A stretch of DNA of 39,314 nt from Syntrophomonadaceae bacterium (GTDB lineage: Bacteria; Bacillota; Dethiobacteria; DTU022; UBA8154). This document shows positions 3,653-12,386 of this stretch, in pieces. The stretch's first letter is position 1. Each line of letters opens with the position of its first letter. The notes under the pieces were generated by a model. The model made no database searches and was not told the origin of the DNA. It saw nothing but the letters and a program-made list of their open reading frames with translations. Made by a program: the position numbers and the translations under genes. The stretch is from positions 1 through 39,314 of the forward strand of contig PWTK01000022.1 of the NCBI GenBank assembly GCA_003563895.1, read 5' to 3'.

Positions 3653-4651
3653 CTACTCCCATTTTTCTTCCAAAAGTCTCAGCAAAAAGAGTACGGCGTT
3701 ATCCAGATCTTCCAGGTCGACCATTTCAGCAGGTGTGTGGATATAACGACAGGGGATGGACAGCACCCCCGAGGGGATGCCTTCCCTGCTGAGGTGGATC
3801 GCACCGGCATCGGTGCCTCCTCTTTCCAGTACTTCCAGCTGGTAGGGGATTTTATTATTTTCGGCCGTTTGTATCATGAGCGACGTCACCCGCGGATGGC
3901 AGATGATGGAGGTGTCCTTAATTTTAACTGCCGGCCCTTTGCCCAGGGAAACGTCCAATTTGTACTCCGGCTCGGGAGTGTCTCCCACCCGGGTCACATC
4001 AACGCCCAGCCCGTAATCAGGCTTGAGGTGGTACGAAGCGGGCCTGGCTCCCCTCAGCCCCACTTCTTCCTGGACGGTAAATACAAAATGGATGCGGTGG
4101 GCCGGTTCCGACGGCATTTTTTTCAGAGCCTCCACCAGAACGGCACAGCCTGTGCGGTTGTCCAACGCTTTCGCCGTCACCCGGTTTTCCCCCGACATCC
4201 CCAGCGGAGAATAAAATACGGCCATATCTCCGATGTTGACTTTCTTCCGCGCTTCGTCGCGGCTGGCGGCCCCGATATCAATGTAAAGCTTGCTTAAATC
4301 CAGTTCTCCGGAGTCTTTCAACTTCTCCTGCCCGATCACCCCAACGGCGCCATTTTGAAAAACCACCCTTTTCCCGGTCAGCAGTTTTGTGAATACCCCT
4401 CCCACGTTTGTAAAACGCAGGAACCCATTTTCGTCGATATAGGTAACCATCAAACCGATTTCATCCATGTGGGCTGCTACCAAAATCGTCTTATCCCCGC
4501 TGCCGCTGCGGGTGATAACCAGGTTGCCCAAATTGTCAACGGCCTGTTCATCGCTGTATGGAGCCGTTTCTTCTTTAATCATGTCGCGCACAGGGCCTTC
4601 TGCCCCGGCCGGCCCAAAAGCCCCGCAGAGCCTGGTCAATAGTTCTTTCAT
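3653..4651 (-). CDS. M42 family aminopeptidase, paralogue 1
   Basis: A cytoplasmic co-catalytic metallo-aminopeptidase of the TET/glutamyl-aminopeptidase family, 332 residues. Dinuclear metal ligands and catalytic residues are all present: His61 and Asp63 (AAHMDE), Asp164 (KALDNRTG), Glu195-Glu196 (QEEVG), Asp218 (VDVT) and His305 (CRYIH). The GGTDAG loop is intact (278-283). Such enzymes form dodecameric tetrahedral shells that trim short peptides. It is the third and last of three tandem M42 genes, starting directly at the stop of paralogue 2, with the terminator at 3371-3400 downstream. Substrate preference (acidic, hydrophobic, basic) cannot be read from sequence alone. Confidence 0.93.
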   Translation of the reverse strand: MKELLTRLCGAFGPAGAEGPVRDMIKEETAPYSDEQAVDNLGNLVITRSGSGDKTILVAAHMDEIGLMVTYIDENGFLRFTNVGGVFTKLLTGKRVVFQNGAVGVIGQEKLKDSGELDLSKLYIDIGAASRDEARKKVNIGDMAVFYSPLGMSGENRVTAKALDNRTGCAVLVEALKKMPSEPAHRIHFVFTVQEEVGLRGARPASYHLKPDYGLGVDVTRVGDTPEPEYKLDVSLGKGPAVKIKDTSIICHPRVTSLMIQTAENNKIPYQLEVLERGGTDAGAIHLSREGIPSGVLSIPCRYIHTPAEMVDLEDLDNAVLFLLRLLEEKWE

Positions 4652-5680
4652 TTAATCAGCCACCCCTTTTTCATGAACTGACCGGATAAAACCCCCCAGG
4701 AGTTCAACCAGGTGTTCCCAATCACTGCGCCTAAGCATGGATGTCGATGAGTGGATGTAACGGCAGGGGGTGGAAACGACACCCGAAAGCACGCCTTCGC
4801 GGCTGAAGGAAGTCACCCCGGCTTCGGTAAAACTTCCGGTATAGCGGCGAAACTGGTACGGAACACCAAGCTCTTCGGCCACGGAGATAAGACGCTCCAG
4901 CACCCTGGGGTGCGTAATCACAGAACCATCCATCAGCGTCAGGGCAGGGCCCTTTCCCAGGCAGGTCGAATATTCCTTTTCCTCCACCTCCGGCGTGTCG
5001 AAAGACCCCGTGGTTTCTACCACCAGTGCCGCCCGGGGATTTAAACGGTAGGAAGCCACTGTGCCGCCGCGGCATCCCACTTCCTCCTGTACCGTAAAAA
5101 CAGCTGTGAAGCTGTAAGGCAGATCTCTTCTTAATATCTCCAGCAGCGCCGCACATCCTGCCCTGTTATCCATGGCTTTGCCGGTAATGAGCTCCTCACC
5201 GGAGGGCTCAACCAGGAAAGCTGCGTAATCTCCTACTTTAACCGATTTTTCTGCTTCTTCCTTACTTCCCGCGCCAATATCAATGTAAAGGTTTTCCGTT
5301 TTCAGCTCTTTTTTTCTCTCCTCTTCTTTTTGCAGGTGAACAGCCTTGGCCCCGATAACCCCTTTCACCTCGTTGCTGCCGATAGTCACCGGCTTGGAAA
5401 CCAGTGCTTGCCGGTCAACCCCTCCCACGGTGTAAAACCGCAGATGCCCGCTTTTTTCTATCGATGCAACGAGCAGACCGACTTCGTCCATGTGGGCGGA
5501 AAGCATTAAATCGGTTTCCCTGCCTTCGCTGCCACTCCCTTTGCAGGGAGCATACAGGTTGCCAATGCTGTCCGTATAATATTCAATACCCCAGGCAGAA
5601 AGCTTCTCCTTGATGTAGTTGCGGACCCTGGATTCATCTCCGGAAACACCGGAAATTTTTGAGAGTTCTTTTATAAACAC
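4652..5680 (-). CDS. M42 family aminopeptidase, paralogue 2 (altered metal site)
   Basis: 342 residues, same fold as its neighbours. Visible ligands are His63/Asp65 (SAHMDE), Asp171 (KAMDNRAG), Glu199-Glu200 (QEEVG) and His310 (CRYIH). Two positions differ from both neighbouring paralogues. The third-metal-ligand Asp of VDV is Glu222 (VVETTG), and the usual TDAG/TDAR loop is FTEAG (284-288). It starts with GTG, preceded by GGAGG at a 7-nt gap, and overlaps the end of paralogue 3 by 10 bp, so translation is coupled. It may be a distinct-specificity or structural subunit of a mixed TET particle; that is inference. Confidence 0.9.
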   Translation of the reverse strand: MFIKELSKISGVSGDESRVRNYIKEKLSAWGIEYYTDSIGNLYAPCKGSGSEGRETDLMLSAHMDEVGLLVASIEKSGHLRFYTVGGVDRQALVSKPVTIGSNEVKGVIGAKAVHLQKEEERKKELKTENLYIDIGAGSKEEAEKSVKVGDYAAFLVEPSGEELITGKAMDNRAGCAALLEILRRDLPYSFTAVFTVQEEVGCRGGTVASYRLNPRAALVVETTGSFDTPEVEEKEYSTCLGKGPALTLMDGSVITHPRVLERLISVAEELGVPYQFRRYTGSFTEAGVTSFSREGVLSGVVSTPCRYIHSSTSMLRRSDWEHLVELLGGFIRSVHEKGVAD

Positions 5681-6735
5681 GTTAATTCCTCCACAAAAGA
5701 GCGGTTAATACCCCTGGCAAAATAAGCCAGCAGCCGTCCGGCGGTCCTGATATCGTTGATGCTAACCAGCTCAACCGAGGTGTGCATATACCGCAGTGGA
5801 ACCGACACAAGGCCTGTGGGAATGCCTTCCAGGCTGACCTGCATGGCACGCGCATCGGTGCCGGTTGGGCCGGGAGAAAGTTCATGCTGGTAGGGGAGCT
5901 GGTATTCCCGGGCCACCCTTACCAGGCGTTCCCCTATTCCCGGATGGATATTTGGTCCGGCAACGATGGCCGGTCCCTTGTTCAACTTGGAAACCTCGTG
6001 TTCCAGCGCGCCGGGGAAGTCGCCGTGACAGACGTCAACCGCAACTCCCACATCGGGAGAGATGCCGTACGTTGCAACTACGGCCCCCCTTACCCCCACT
6101 TCCTCCTGTACGGTGGCAACCAGGTAAACATCAGCCTCATGCCTGACCGATTCCAGTTCATTTGCACACTGCAAAAGGACTGCAACACCGGCCCGGTCAT
6201 CCAGGGCCTTGCCTGCAGCGGAGTTTTGCAGCAGGGGCAGGTAACTGCGGTGAATTGCCACTGCGGAGCCGACCTGGATCACTTCTTTCACTTCTTCTTT
6301 CGAAAGGCCGGTATCGATAAAGAGGTTTTCTGTCTTCAGTCCCTGTTTTTTGTCTCTTTCGCGGCGCAGGTGAGGAGGTTTGCCGCCAATAATCCCCTTC
6401 ACCGGACGGGTCCCATAAACCGTAACCTCCTGGCCGGGAAGAGTGCGCACGTCAAACCCGCCCAGGGAAGTAAATCTCAGAAAACCTTCATCTTCCAGCT
6501 TGGTGATCAAAAAGCCGATTTCGTCCATATGGGCGCAGAACAACACCCGGGCCGGAGGCGAAGAAGCCTTGCTTTCGCCCTTTTTCAAAAAGATAAGGTT
6601 TCCCAGGTTGTCGACCCTTTTCTCGTCGACCAGCGGGGAAAACGCTTCCTCAATGCGGGACGCAACACGTCCTTCAAAGCCCGAAACCCCGTCTGTTTCG
6701 GTAATCTCCTTCAAAAATGTGCCGATTTCGAACAT
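5671..6735 (-). CDS. M42 family aminopeptidase, paralogue 3
   Basis: 354-residue M42 metallopeptidase. Ligands and catalytic residues are complete: His69/Asp71 (CAHMDE), Asp179 (KALDDRAG), Glu211-Glu212 (QEEVG), Asp234 (VDVCHGD) and His318 (LRYMH). TGTDAR at 291-296 replaces GGTDAG. The VDVxHGDFPG form resembles the YsdC/FrvX group. The start at 6735 has GGGAGGGTT 5 nt upstream. It is the first of three tandem M42 genes and follows the MetE-like gene by 22 bp, which suggests one operon. It probably trims peptides from proteasome-like or Clp degradation in the cytoplasm. Confidence 0.93.
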   Translation of the reverse strand: MFEIGTFLKEITETDGVSGFEGRVASRIEEAFSPLVDEKRVDNLGNLIFLKKGESKASSPPARVLFCAHMDEIGFLITKLEDEGFLRFTSLGGFDVRTLPGQEVTVYGTRPVKGIIGGKPPHLRRERDKKQGLKTENLFIDTGLSKEEVKEVIQVGSAVAIHRSYLPLLQNSAAGKALDDRAGVAVLLQCANELESVRHEADVYLVATVQEEVGVRGAVVATYGISPDVGVAVDVCHGDFPGALEHEVSKLNKGPAIVAGPNIHPGIGERLVRVAREYQLPYQHELSPGPTGTDARAMQVSLEGIPTGLVSVPLRYMHTSVELVSINDIRTAGRLLAYFARGINRSFVEELTCL

Positions 6736-6757: not shown

Positions 6758-7849
6758 TCACCTGCCCTCCGCCAGGGCTTCCTGGAGCTGACAGGTTAGC
6801 CGGTAGACCTTTTCTGTTTGGGCCGCACTGAGAGTGCCTGCACCGCAGCTGGGCGTCAGGAGCAGCTGCCTTCTTAACAAATCTTCGGGCACTCCCCGGC
6901 GGGTAAGCCGCTCCACACCATTCTCAAACCGGCGCAGCAGTGAGTCTACCTCTTCCTTTTCCACCGCTTCGGAAGTAGGTACCAACCCCCAGGAAAGGCA
7001 GCCGCCTCTTTCCAAAAAGCGGGTCAGCTCTTCGGTGTAGACGAGCATGGAATCAAAAAAATCGTACGCATCGAAATTCACCACGTCCAGGGGGAGTTCA
7101 AACAGTATAGACCAGTCTACACCGGAGCAGCAGTGCACTCCGCTGCTGGCCCCTTCCGCCTGCAGCGCATGAACCACCTGCTCGAAGCTCTGGACAATAT
7201 CGGGCCTGGAAAGGGAAACATAGGTGGATTGCCCGTAAGCCATCAGGGCCGGTTCATCCATAAAGATCAAAACTGGCAGGGAAAACTGCTGCATGGCGCG
7301 CGCCTGGGCCCTGGCGATAAGTTCCAGCGCCTTGACCAGGATATCGCGCAAGCCTTCCTGGTAAAAGGCCGCCCCGCCTTCTTCTGCATTGACCTGCAAA
7401 CCCATGGAAAGCGGTCCGCTGATCTGCCCCTTTAAAAAAACGGGCCGCCGATCTCCACCTTTCCAGTCTTCTTCCAAAAAGCGGTAAAAACCCTTCGCCG
7501 CGTCTTCGGGAAAGGCAAAAAAAGAAAGGGCTTGTTCCTTCTGCGAGCCCTCTCCCGCTGCATCAAGGTAATAGCTATAAAACTGCTCGCTTTTTTCCAG
7601 CCAGCTGCCTCCCTGATCGCAGAAAAAGGGTGTCTCACCCTGTTCGGTTTCCACCATTCCAAGCTTCACCAGGGGGTGCAGGTACTGCCGAACAAAGCTT
7701 TCCACCTTTCCCCTGGCCGGTAGTTGTGGCCAATGCGGCCCGTAAACGAGGTTTTCCTTGACCAACCGCAGCGCTTCTTCCGCTTCCTGGTGAGGAACAC
7801 TGCCGATAGCCGTCGCCAAGCCATATAAGTATTCAGCCTTCTGCCGCAA
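6758..7849 (-). CDS. UROD/MetE-like zinc methyltransferase family protein
   Basis: 363 residues in the uroporphyrinogen decarboxylase/cobalamin-independent methionine synthase superfamily. A MetE-like zinc site can be traced: His239-x-Cys241 (VHCCSG), an acidic residue near 260 (VNFDAYDF, where MetE has Glu) and Cys335 (TPSCGAG). FMDEPAL near 197-203 matches the barrel strand that binds substrate in MetE relatives. It lacks the N-terminal folate-binding half of full MetE, so it is a short form that may take methyl groups from a corrinoid protein or another donor; the donor is unknown. Start is TTG at 7849 with GGGGGAG 5-6 nt upstream. It leads the M42 operon. Confidence 0.75.
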   Translation of the reverse strand: MRQKAEYLYGLATAIGSVPHQEAEEALRLVKENLVYGPHWPQLPARGKVESFVRQYLHPLVKLGMVETEQGETPFFCDQGGSWLEKSEQFYSYYLDAAGEGSQKEQALSFFAFPEDAAKGFYRFLEEDWKGGDRRPVFLKGQISGPLSMGLQVNAEEGGAAFYQEGLRDILVKALELIARAQARAMQQFSLPVLIFMDEPALMAYGQSTYVSLSRPDIVQSFEQVVHALQAEGASSGVHCCSGVDWSILFELPLDVVNFDAYDFFDSMLVYTEELTRFLERGGCLSWGLVPTSEAVEKEEVDSLLRRFENGVERLTRRGVPEDLLRRQLLLTPSCGAGTLSAAQTEKVYRLTCQLQEALAEGR

Positions 7850-8077: not shown

Positions 8078-8129
8078 GAATAAAGAAAGAAGCCCTTATG
8101 CTGTCTTTGCAGGCTTTTAGAGGGCTTCT
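8078..8129 (-). terminator. intrinsic terminator after cimA
   Basis: On the minus strand AGAAGCCCT (8121-8129, inside the last cimA codons) pairs with AGGGCTTCT (8088-8096). The loop is about 24 nt and a U-rich tail, TTCTTTATT, follows. The stop codon lies in the loop. Confidence 0.65.
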
Positions 8130-9763
8130 TCTTCCCAACTAATTTCCTTAAGCGCTTGTTTTATGTCTTCGGCCTTTTTGTCTTCTGCCAGCAGCCTTTT
8201 GTCGCAAATCAGGCCGTATTCTATGCCGTCCACCAGGGCGATCCAGCTGGCGGCAATGATGTTTTCAGATACGCCTACCGTCCCCCATTTTTTCTTGCTG
8301 TTTTGAAAGGTGGTCAGCACGCGCACTTTGGCGGCCGTCCCGTCTTTGCCGTCAAGCACCCTCACCTTATAATCAACCAGTTTAATCTCTTTCAGCTCGG
8401 GGTAGATCTCTTCCAGGGCTTTACGCAGGGCTTTGTCCATCGCATTGACCGGCCCGTTTCCTTCAGCTGCCGTGTGGACAGTCTGCTCCTCCACTTTCAG
8501 CTTGATGGTGGCTTCCACGTAGAGATCATCCTCTTCGCGCCTCTGCTTGTCAACAATAACGCGAAAGCCTTCAAGCTCAAAGAGGGGCTTGTACGCTTTT
8601 GTTGATTTCCATACAAGCAGATCAAAAGAACCCTCGGCCCCTTCAAACTGGTACCCCTGGTGCTCCATTTCCTTCAACTTTTTTAGAACTTCTCTGGCTT
8701 CCGGCAGCTTGCCGGTAAGCCTCAACCCGTTTTCCCTGGCCTTCAGCAGGATATTCCCCTTGCCCGAAAGCTCAGAAATCAGGAAGCGCCTCCTGTTTCC
8801 CACTTCTTCGGGATCTGCGTGTTCATAAGAACGGGCGTGCTTGGCAACTGCACTAACGTGAACTCCGCCTTTATGGGTAAAGGCATTGCGGCCCACAAAG
8901 GGCTGGTTGTCCTGGGGGATCATGTTGGCCAGCTCGGCAACCAGCTTGGAAATACGGGTCAGGCCTCTTAGTTTCTCCGGGTCGAAGCTGGAAATACCCA
9001 GTTTAAACTGCAGGTTGGGGATCAGGGTGCAAAGATCGGCATTCCCGCACCTTTCTCCGTAACCGTTTATGGTTCCCTGCACGTGAACGGCCCCGCTCTG
9101 CAGGGCAATAAGAGAATTGGCCACTGCCATCCCGCAGTCATTATGGGCATGGATGCCGAGGGGTGTGGTGATCCTGGACTTAACTTCTTTCACCACCTTT
9201 TGCACTTCCAGCGGCAGTGCCCCCCCGTTGGTATCGCACAAAACGAGCACATCAGCACCGCCCTCGGCAGCGGCTTCCAGGGTTTTTAAGGCGTAATCCG
9301 GGTTGTTTTTGAACCCGTCGAAAAAATGCTCGGCATCGAAAAAAACTTCCCGGTGTTTGCTCTTGAGAAACGATACCGTATCAAAAATCATGGAGAGATT
9401 TTCCTCCAGCGTCGTTCCCAGGACATGGGTGGCATGGAAATCCCAGCATTTGCCAACTATGGTTACTGCGGGAGTTCCGGCTTCCAAAAGTGACCTGACA
9501 TTGGCGTCGGCACCCACCTCTATCCCGGCATGCCGGGTGCTGCCGAAGGCCACAACTTTGGCCCCCTGGAGAGAAAGCTCCTTCAGCCGCCGAAAAAATT
9601 CCATATCCTTGGGGTTTGAGCCGGGCCATCCGCCTTCTATATAGTCAACCCCCAGATCATCCAGCAGCCTGGCAATCTCGATTTTATCGCTGATGGAAAA
9701 AGAAATGCCTTCTCTTTGTGAACCATCCCTGAGCGTGGTATCGTATACACTGACTGTATCCAT
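8117..9763 (-). CDS. cimA: (R)-citramalate synthase
   Basis: CimA joins pyruvate and acetyl-CoA to citramalate, opening a threonine-independent route to 2-ketobutyrate and isoleucine. The 548-residue protein starts with the DRE-TIM metallolyase signature [13 protein letters not shown] (residues 7-19). [13 protein letters not shown] (Claisen-condensing His motif) lies near 205, [15 protein letters not shown] near 230, and a C-terminal LeuA dimerisation/allosteric domain runs from about residue 400. The [11 protein letters not shown] segment fits the long GSU1798-like CimA group rather than LeuA or NifV. GGAGG lies 6 nt before the ATG. It is the last gene of a long run and has its own terminator. 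Confidence 0.94.
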
Positions 9764-9828
9764 ATGCGTCCTCCATCGGAAATCCTATCTTGATTAAAAG
9801 TAATTATACTATACGGCATAAAGCCTGT

Positions 9829-10800
9829 CTACCGGCCAGAAATAATTTTATTGTGAATCTTCAGCAGCTCAATGGCCAGTTCTTCGATATAGTCTGCACC
9901 TTTACGGCCCCTTTCCAGTGCATGAAGCCAGCGCAGCGGGATGGAACCCTTCCCCCGGTAGGCACCGGCGATCGCTCCGGTCATGGCACCGATGGTATCC
10001 GTGTCCCCTCCCAGGCCCACGGAAAAAACCAGGGCCTCCTCAAAATCCTCGCTGTGCGACAGAAAAGAATAAATTGCCGGGGGTACCGAACAGAGAGCCC
10101 TGCTGTCATTCCCCAATCGATCAAGCACCTCTTCCACTGGAGGCTTTTTCTCTTTCTGCAGCAGCTCAGCAACGGCTTCCAACTTTTCCCGGAAAGGGGA
10201 ACCGGGCGAAACCTGCCCGAGCAGGGTTGAAAGAAAGTCTTCCCTGTCCAATGGACGCGCGGGGTCGCTATTTATGGCCAGCGCCACGGCACTGGCCTGC
10301 AGGGCTGCACCCTCCTGGCCCAGGGGATGGGCATGGGTGATGACAGAGGATTCAAAGGCCACTTCCCTCAGCTGCACGAGATCGTGATGATACAAGCAGC
10401 CAACCGGCGCCACACGCATCGCAGACCCGTTTCCGTAAGACCCGCCCTGGAACACCTTGGCTCCAGCTTCCCACCAGTTAACTCCACTGCGGATCAGCTC
10501 CAGCGCCCTTCGCGTACCGGCACCGTATCCTCTCTGATAATTAAAATTTTCCAGGAACGACCGGGCCAGGTCCTCGCCGTCAAAGCCTCCCTTCTGAACA
10601 AGGCTTTCAGCCAGGGCGATCATCATCTCTGTATCATCCGTGTAGGTCCCGACTCCCATTCGGGCCTCCAGCATTTCCCGCAGTTGACCGTAATGGGTCC
10701 TGATAGAAACATGGGAGGCACCTTCCACAGGCATGCCCAGCGCATCGCCCACGTGGGTGCCCAGCAGGGCTCCACAAAACCTGTCGGAAAGATCGATCAT
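9829..10800 (-). CDS. ADP-ribosylglycohydrolase family protein
   Basis: 323-residue DraG/ARH-type hydrolase, which removes ADP-ribose from proteins or small molecules using a di-Mg2+ centre. Diagnostic motifs are GALLGTHVGDALGMPVEG near the N-terminus, TYTDDTEM (about 53-60) and the C-terminal GGDTDTIGAMTGAIAGA (metal-binding Asp residues). The fold appears complete. It lies 32 bp after the CoA-transferase beta gene and 65 bp before cimA. No DraT-type ADP-ribosyltransferase is in the window, so the substrate is open. The SLOG-fold gene at 13272-13721, another predicted binder of nucleotide-derived ligands, lies in the same run. Confidence 0.9.
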   Translation of the reverse strand: MIDLSDRFCGALLGTHVGDALGMPVEGASHVSIRTHYGQLREMLEARMGVGTYTDDTEMMIALAESLVQKGGFDGEDLARSFLENFNYQRGYGAGTRRALELIRSGVNWWEAGAKVFQGGSYGNGSAMRVAPVGCLYHHDLVQLREVAFESSVITHAHPLGQEGAALQASAVALAINSDPARPLDREDFLSTLLGQVSPGSPFREKLEAVAELLQKEKKPPVEEVLDRLGNDSRALCSVPPAIYSFLSHSEDFEEALVFSVGLGGDTDTIGAMTGAIAGAYRGKGSIPLRWLHALERGRKGADYIEELAIELLKIHNKIISGR

Positions 10801-10832: not shown

Positions 10833-11564
10833 TTAACGAATGCAGCGTTTCACGAAATGCGGGTAAGCCTGGCGTATTTTTTCTTTCACCTGCGAACGCA
10901 GCACTTCAAGCTCTTCTTCAGAGGGAGGAACGGTTTCGGTTGCCTGATCCGGCACTTCCAGGGAAAATCCCGTATTCTCCAACACCTTCTCCACGGTGAT
11001 TCCGGGATGGACGGATTCCAGCACAAACTCGCCCTTTTCCTCTATATAAGAAAGCACACACAGCGGTGTCAGGCACTTTGATGCTTTCCCCTGCCTGTAA
11101 ACCTCCGGAGGAGACTGACCTGCGCCGGTCACAAAGTCGACGTGTTCAACAAAAGATTTCGGATGGTGGTCGGTTGTGAAAAGGATCACGCGCGGCACTG
11201 TATAATATAGGGTACCCGTCCCGGCTCCGCCGGGAAGCCTGACCTTGGGCTTCTCGTAATCTCCAATGACGTGCAGGTTTGTATTGGCATACCTGTCCAC
11301 CTGGGCGCCGCCCAGAAAAAAGAGGTCAACTTTCCCCCTCTGCGCCAGGTCAAAAAACTCCTTTACCCCTTCGCTGAAGGGCCAGAATTCCCTTATCATC
11401 CAGATCAGTAATTCCGCTTCCGGCGCATGAGTCAGCTTGGCCAGTATCGCCCCCGCAGCGGGAACCGGGGAAAGGGTTCCCACCGCCACTGTTTCTTTAT
11501 CCCTGATTTCGCGGGAAACAAGAACAGACATCAGCTCTTCTACTGTGTAATCCGGGTGTTGCAA
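10833..11564 (-). CDS. CoA-transferase beta subunit (GctB/IpdB-like)
   Basis: 243-residue beta subunit of the family I CoA-transferase fold. The nucleotide-binding core RLPGGAGTG followed by PRVILFTTDH and the C-terminal IEEKGEFVLESVHPGITVEKV segment are typical of the GctB/IpdB branch. I cannot place the ENG-type catalytic glutamate of true CoA-transferases; the corresponding region reads REFWPFSEG. It may therefore be nearer to IpdB-type hydrolases, which are reported to lack that residue. It lies 12 bp downstream of the alpha subunit gene, so the two are expected to form a heteromer. The acyl substrate is unknown. Confidence 0.85.
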   Translation of the reverse strand: MQHPDYTVEELMSVLVSREIRDKETVAVGTLSPVPAAGAILAKLTHAPEAELLIWMIREFWPFSEGVKEFFDLAQRGKVDLFFLGGAQVDRYANTNLHVIGDYEKPKVRLPGGAGTGTLYYTVPRVILFTTDHHPKSFVEHVDFVTGAGQSPPEVYRQGKASKCLTPLCVLSYIEEKGEFVLESVHPGITVEKVLENTGFSLEVPDQATETVPPSEEELEVLRSQVKEKIRQAYPHFVKRCIR

Positions 11565-11576
11565 CGCAGCTCCCTC

Positions 11577-12386
11577 CTAGCCGGTAATGAAATCGCGGAG
11601 AAAACTATTGAATTTCTCCCCGTCTTTGGCGGCTTCAATATACCTTGACACAAGGTTTTCGTCCAAATCGTAATAGCCCCTGCAGGCGGTTGGACGCGCC
11701 GCGCCTTCCAGGAGCACAACCCCTGTCACATAAAGGGACGGGATCAGCACCCCTTCACCGCAAGCGAGCAGCTCCTCCCGTGAATCGACCAGTTCCTCGC
11801 AGGTGGCAATAACCTTTTCTGAAGCCCGCGCCAGGAGGGGGTCGTTTTCGAAGCCGTCTACCAAAAGGTTGCCTTTCCGATCGGCTTTAAAGGCGTGAAT
11901 AAATGCCAGGTCGGGTGTAATCGGGGGAACAAGCACCACTTTTTCCCCTTCCTGGAAAGGATTTTCCACCGCCTTGAAATCGGAACGAATGTGCATATAG
12001 CCCGTGCCGATGATGCCCCGAACCGGCATGAACGGTTGGCCCATGGCTCCAGCCTGGAGTCCCGCCAGCAGACTCGGTCAGGTGTGTTCCTTCAAGTTAA
12101 GGCGCCCCTCCTGAGCCAGGCGACGCATGTTGGGAGCCAGACCGAATTCCCACAAGCCCATCTGTGCGAACTCCAGGGATTTTACCGCACCGGCACCGAT
12201 CAAAAGATCTGCGGCAAACCCCCCTACCGGTGAAGCGATCAGCTCCAGATCTCCGGGGGCGGCTCGGATCGTTTCTTTCACCAGCTCCACCGGGTTCATG
12301 TTAATGGACTGACCGCCAAGCGCCAGGCTCATTCCGTCCGCAAGGTGCTCTCTGACTGTTCCCAGTTCAATGAGTTTGGAGCTCAT
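11577..12386 (-). CDS. CoA-transferase alpha subunit (GctA/IpdA-like) interrupted by one in-frame UGA
   Basis: Two open stretches in the same frame, separated only by TGA at 12078-12080, together make one 269-residue alpha subunit. The first 102 codons carry the N-terminal part (LALGG, NPVELVKETIR, ADLLIGAGAVKSLEF, FGLAPNMRR). After the UGA the frame continues at once with PSLLAGLQAGAMG and the conserved PFMPVRG, through to a normal C-terminus. ATG at 12386 is preferred (AGGATG 7 nt upstream) over TTG at 12392. A hairpin at 12037-12067 has its loop starting 22 nt past the UGA and resembles a bacterial SECIS. Codon 103 could be selenocysteine, a readthrough residue or a nonsense mutation; neither flank shows other damage. 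The beta subunit follows by 12 bp. Confidence 0.8.
12037..12067 (-). promoter_or_regulatory. SECIS-like hairpin downstream of in-frame UGA
   Basis: On the minus strand UGGC (12064-12067) pairs with GCCA (12037-12040), GG (12061-12062) with CC (12045-12046), and CUCC (12056-12059) with GGAG (12047-12050). The loop is AGGCU, with G in its second position. UGA-to-loop distance is 22 nt, within the range known for bacterial SECIS elements. It lies inside a coding region, so part of the pairing may be chance. Confidence 0.35.

Follow-up and report, generated by a model that had tools for sequence, protein, structure and literature searches.

A predicted selenocysteine codon in a CoA-transferase-fold alpha subunit and its probable role in acyl-CoA chemistry

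Comparative evidence supports the conclusion that the alpha subunit gene of a CoA-transferase-fold gene pair from a Syntrophomonadaceae bacterium encodes a selenoprotein. The gene lies in a stretch of 39,314 nucleotides (contig PWTK01000022.1, assembly GCA_003563895.1, positions 1 to 39,314) that is referred to here as the window. Its reading frame contains a UGA, codon 103, that is almost certainly read as selenocysteine (Sec), a prediction from sequence comparison in which insertion in the cell is inferred. The protein is a new selenoprotein family, a variant of the CoA-transferase fold, without a match in the lists that we checked. We consider it probable that the full statement holds, namely, that alpha is a selenoprotein and that with its beta subunit it forms a Sec-dependent acyl-CoA enzyme resembling IpdAB and AibAB. 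The features discussed are collected in Table 1.

Table 1. Positions in the window of the alpha and beta genes and of the elements predicted to act in their expression
Feature	Position	Strand	Description
Alpha subunit gene	11577..12386	-	269 residues with Sec103, ATG to TAG; based on PF01144 read through the UGA and on homologues in 32 genomes
UGA codon 103, predicted to be read as selenocysteine	12078..12080	-	U at this column in 31 aligned rows and also in G668; four rows from that clade have Cys
Predicted SECIS hairpin, fold of the window copy	12037..12067	-	Three helices (4+2+5 bp), loop AGGCU, -11.4 kcal/mol; fits the published bacterial SECIS model
Conserved SECIS core	12044..12062	-	Loop GGC (12052-12054) flanked by 8 pair positions; 5 of 8 covary over 19 sequences
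Beta subunit gene	10833..11564	-	TTG start; PF01144, 1.6e-22; best PDB relatives GctB 1poi, AibB 5mzw, IpdB 6co6
GGAGGG, likely beta ribosome-binding site	11572..11577	-	Overlaps the alpha stop codon; read from the sequence

A first-pass annotation of the window had described two stretches of one alpha subunit in the same frame, split by a TGA at codon 103 and with 11 sense codons before the next ATG, and had suggested that the codon may specify Sec. Rereading of the minus-strand frame (12386-11577) confirmed this layout: 102 residues, a single TGA (12080-12078), 166 residues, and then TAG, with the codons for PSLLAGLQAGA lying between the TGA and the next ATG. Read through the TGA, alpha matches the CoA_trans domain (PF01144) at 2e-21 over residues 11-224. 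Among 18 window genes checked, alpha was the only one with an in-frame TGA, and 5 of the 18 end in TGA; TGA is therefore a normal stop here and the genetic code is the ordinary one.

The TGA recurs in relatives. Sixty related genomes yielded four close homologues (47 to 67% identity), each with exactly one TGA, and paralogues at no more than 36% identity that lacked it. With a profile made from the close homologues, 11 members, counting that of the window, were recovered from the 98 genomes of the class, again with one TGA in each, and the score gap was wide, with members at 297 bits or above and TGA-free paralogues at 176 bits or below. Further members came from searches in other classes and, with a profile built from both Sec and Cys members, from 398 genomes that sample the phylum evenly. 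Altogether, TGA occupies the same column in 32 genomes from several classes of the phylum; because the search profiles were built from Sec and Cys members, such counts are not population frequencies. One scan of genome contigs turned up two relatives and no others, each in a named Syntrophomonadaceae MAG. Six-frame reading placed Sec in the motif [ED]H[TV]U, usually with Pro as the next residue; a second motif, EGSUTA, appeared among the members added later.

The residue at codon 103 itself distinguishes Sec from a sense codon lost by mutation, as the first-pass annotation had pointed out: Cys or UGA in relatives would speak for Sec, and Trp or Arg would speak for mutation. Over 110 aligned rows, the column holds U in 31, Glu in 32, Asn in 24, Cys in 6, Gly in 5, Ala in 4, and a few other residues, with no Trp or Arg in any row; distant paralogues have Glu, Asn, Gly, or Ala. 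In a maximum-likelihood tree made without this column, all 31 U rows and four of the six Cys rows fell on one side of a branch with SH-aLRT support of 94, and the four Cys rows lay among the U groups. The two Cys rows outside this clade (L098 and L159, motif ETDCN) perhaps represent an independent Cys enzyme.

The hairpin that the first-pass annotation had placed just downstream of the UGA was found, with three short helices and its loop 22 nt past the UGA. Published criteria for bacterial SECIS elements specify a loop of 3 to 9 nt whose first or second base is G, located 16 to 37 nt after the UGA, an upper stem of 4 to 16 bp, and a minimum free energy of at most -7.5 kcal/mol (PMC13188914). 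The window hairpin (loop start +23, 5-bp upper stem, -11.4 kcal/mol) lies within all of these limits, as do the hairpins of 27 of 31 UGA genes compared with 18 of 73 others (1 of 6 Cys genes and 17 of 67 genes with Glu, Asn, Ala, Gly, or His). In the 17 passing genes of the last group, the loops sit at scattered places, whereas in nearly all UGA genes the loop begins at +21 to +23 counted from the UGA. The core of the window copy, in which two of the eight pairs are open (A-C and G-A), did not stand out from synonymously shuffled sequences for its peptide (z, -0.07). Since the window hairpin taken alone is not significant, our argument for a SECIS element is built on conservation and covariation in the family.

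Covariation was assessed over 19 sequences. Five of the eight core pairs change on both sides, giving 20 such cells against 7.2 in shuffled alignments (0 of 500 as high), and controls with slid strands gave 0 to 4. Mean hairpin energy relative to synonymous shuffles was lowest in UGA genes (z, -1.73, versus -0.44 for Cys, -0.38 for Glu, and +0.66 for Asn genes), and the Cys genes of the clade had no hairpin at the register seen in UGA genes. Two Cys members (L153 and L079) and one UGA member (L078) share the peptide LRAAA, and of these only L078 forms the hairpin, so the hairpin is not dictated by the encoded protein. The loops also differ by subfamily, being CGUGC or GUG in genes with the EGSUTA motif (rows L080, L081, L082, L154-L157, L162-L167, and L171) and AGGCU or GGGCC in those with HTUP.

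Among the sel genes that the first-pass annotation had named as a check, most were recovered. The genome of the window (1.82 Mb, 79.6% complete) encodes SelA (530 bits), an adjoining SelB (419 bits), and tRNA-Sec with a UCA anticodon; the best match to SelD in this incomplete assembly scored 88.4 bits, below the cutoff of 125. Of the 32 UGA genomes, 30 had SelB above its cutoff. The two exceptions are G053 (97% complete; L131) and G092 (75%; L132), where the assembly may have a gap, the contig may be a contaminant, or the Sec machinery may have been lost. Because Glu-type genomes carry SelB too, the presence of SelB among hand-picked genomes does not discriminate; in the even phylum sample, which served in their place, SelB was found in 15 of 15 UGA genomes versus 263 of 398 genomes overall (P = 0.0017, uncorrected for relatedness).

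These data bear on two other readings of the codon. The UGA might be translated as Cys, Trp, or another residue by readthrough or a suppressor tRNA, in keeping with the subthreshold SelD match and with the two UGA genomes that lack detectable SelB. This is very improbable, however, given the covarying SECIS element, the presence of tRNA-Sec(UCA) and SelB, the use of Cys as the alternative residue in the clade, and the normal role of TGA as a stop. Negligible in turn is the chance that alpha is a pseudogene produced by a recent nonsense mutation or by a sequencing or assembly error, for which the window by itself offers a stop in a conserved gene, since the same codon is TGA in 32 genomes, and proteins diverged to about 32% identity nonetheless keep both halves conserved and an intact beta adjoining alpha. 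The alternatives listed in the first-pass annotation (UGA readthrough, a recent nonsense mutation, and a sequencing error) are thus effectively excluded by the 32-genome TGA column together with the SECIS covariation and the Sec machinery. Decoding as Sec is strongly supported; tRNA-Sec and SelB would read UGA 103 under the direction of the hairpin just downstream.

Alpha shares with known prokaryotic selenoproteins an in-frame UGA followed by a SECIS element, exchange of Sec and Cys, and SelA, SelB, and tRNA-Sec in the genome. The first-pass annotation had known of no such selenoprotein family, and the lists agree. A 2026 table of 119 prokaryotic selenoprotein families and subfamilies contains none with a CoA-transferase fold (PMC13188914), and no NCBIfam selenoprotein model matched alpha above its cutoff. 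A literature search for a Sec-containing CoA-transferase likewise returned none, within a scope that excluded preprints and most subscription papers, so that an earlier report or a GenBank annotation may exist.

The alpha gene is paired with a beta subunit gene wherever the contig allows, and the position of the likely beta ribosome-binding site over the alpha stop codon suggests that translation of full-length alpha is coupled to that of beta. The wider neighborhood showed no constant pathway; beyond alpha and beta, the remaining genes are those common to close kin. Alpha with Sec and beta would form an alpha/beta enzyme of the CoA-transferase fold that binds acyl-CoA. At the column of the CoA-transferase catalytic Glu, which forms the enzyme-CoA thioester, beta has Ile in the window and Ile or Val in 16 of 16 distinct partners of Sec and Cys alphas, whereas a CoA-transferase-like paralogue of L147 retains Glu. 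The register of this column depends on an alignment with a one-residue gap, and no partner has an acidic residue within one position of it.

The alpha profile matches the structures of GctA, AibA, and IpdA. IpdAB (PDB 6co6, 6co9, 6coj, and 6con), a steroid ring-cleaving hydrolase with the class I CoA-transferase fold, shares the fold and the alpha/beta pair. The Sec column corresponds to an IpdA residue, which we take to be the catalytic Glu105; structure 6co6 has Glu there, and for 6coj the depositors had selected this residue for replacement by Ala. The family described here has Sec or Cys at that position, and its clade is separate from the Glu-type rows in the tree. IpdAB catalyzes a retro-Claisen hydrolysis (PMC6678751). 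The AibA/AibB 3-methylglutaconyl-CoA decarboxylase (5mzw and others) also shares the fold (alpha profile match, 1.5e-38) and, like the present pair, has a beta subunit without the CoA-transferase Glu; it acts on acyl-CoA without CoA transfer, and AibB Cys56 stands in for the Glu (PMC7756340). The two arrangements differ: the former Glu column of beta is Cys in AibB and Ile or Val here, and the Sec column of alpha is Gly in AibA and Sec or Cys here. Glutaconate CoA-transferase GctAB (1poi) is the best PDB sequence match for both subunits, but the catalytic Glu of GctB is lost here and GctA has Gln at the Sec column. Class I CoA-transferases in general share the CoA_trans fold in both subunits and not the loss of the beta Glu.

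In light of these comparisons, we predict that the reactive group has moved from the beta Glu to Sec or Cys in alpha, at the IpdA Glu column, and that the enzyme acts on acyl-CoA esters. With the catalytic Glu of beta gone, it is probably not a CoA-transferase by mechanism. The description of alpha as CoA-transferase- or IpdAB-like in the first-pass annotation thus stands for the fold and for the correspondence of Sec to the IpdA Glu, and probably falls for the transferase mechanism. On balance, by analogy with its relatives, Sec would be the catalytic residue of a non-transferase acyl-CoA reaction of the IpdAB/AibAB kind, whether cleavage of a C-C bond, hydrolysis, or decarboxylation; it may act as a covalent nucleophile. 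An AlphaFold model of alpha (three rows) had a pLDDT of 37 and was set aside. The specific reaction is a guess from relatives, and nucleophilic, acid-base, and redox roles of Sec are indistinguishable with the present data. More tentatively, the shift of the catalytic group to Sec as a covalent nucleophile might make this a selenol-dependent, thiolase-like enzyme that cleaves C-C bonds and keeps the acyl group activated; if so, the activated acyl group would pay for anaerobes near the energy limit.

Two other roles for Sec103 were weighed. It could be a redox-active or metal-binding residue, for example one that reduces or senses a thiol/disulfide substrate, on a CoA-transferase scaffold. The majority of known selenoproteins are redox proteins (PMC13188914), and the hosts are Sec-rich anaerobes. 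We nevertheless regard this role as unlikely: the protein has no CxxU or UxxC partner, the HTUP and GSUTA motifs have no Cys within a few residues, and Glu at the Sec column of distant relatives points to acid-base rather than redox chemistry. Less likely still, the pair could be an ordinary CoA-transferase of the glutaconate or 3-oxoacid type in which catalysis still follows the transferase mechanism and Sec serves to adjust binding or redox sensitivity. PF01144 in both subunits and the closeness to 1poi are consistent with this, but the uniform replacement of the beta Glu in the 16 partners and scores far under the cutoff for NCBIfam CoA-transferase models (44.1 versus 315 bits) argue against it.

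If these predictions are correct, another enzyme superfamily would join the users of selenium, in acyl-CoA chemistry rather than in an obvious redox function. Genes that automatic annotation splits, or calls broken CoA-transferase subunits, would be intact. Furthermore, since this fold occurs naturally with Sec, with Cys, and with Glu, the gain from Sec in C-C or thioester chemistry could be tested directly.

Several neighboring genes of the window, all on the minus strand, also occur near the pair or near one another elsewhere. In G515 and G516 (L141 and L142), two genomes of another class, a trio from the same family as the window's three tandem M42 aminopeptidase genes (3653-6735) sits roughly 2 kb from the UGA-containing alpha gene and its beta partner. 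Beside the M42 genes, a 363-residue protein without a Pfam match (6758-7849) is conserved in the same position in G009 (L129, 13188-14291). Directly downstream of beta are genes for an ADP-ribosylglycohydrolase and a LeuA/homocitrate-synthase-like protein (8117-10800), an order that is the same in G009, and a gene of the HMGL family, to which the LeuA-like gene belongs, also lies near the pair in G086 (L136, 3689-5356).
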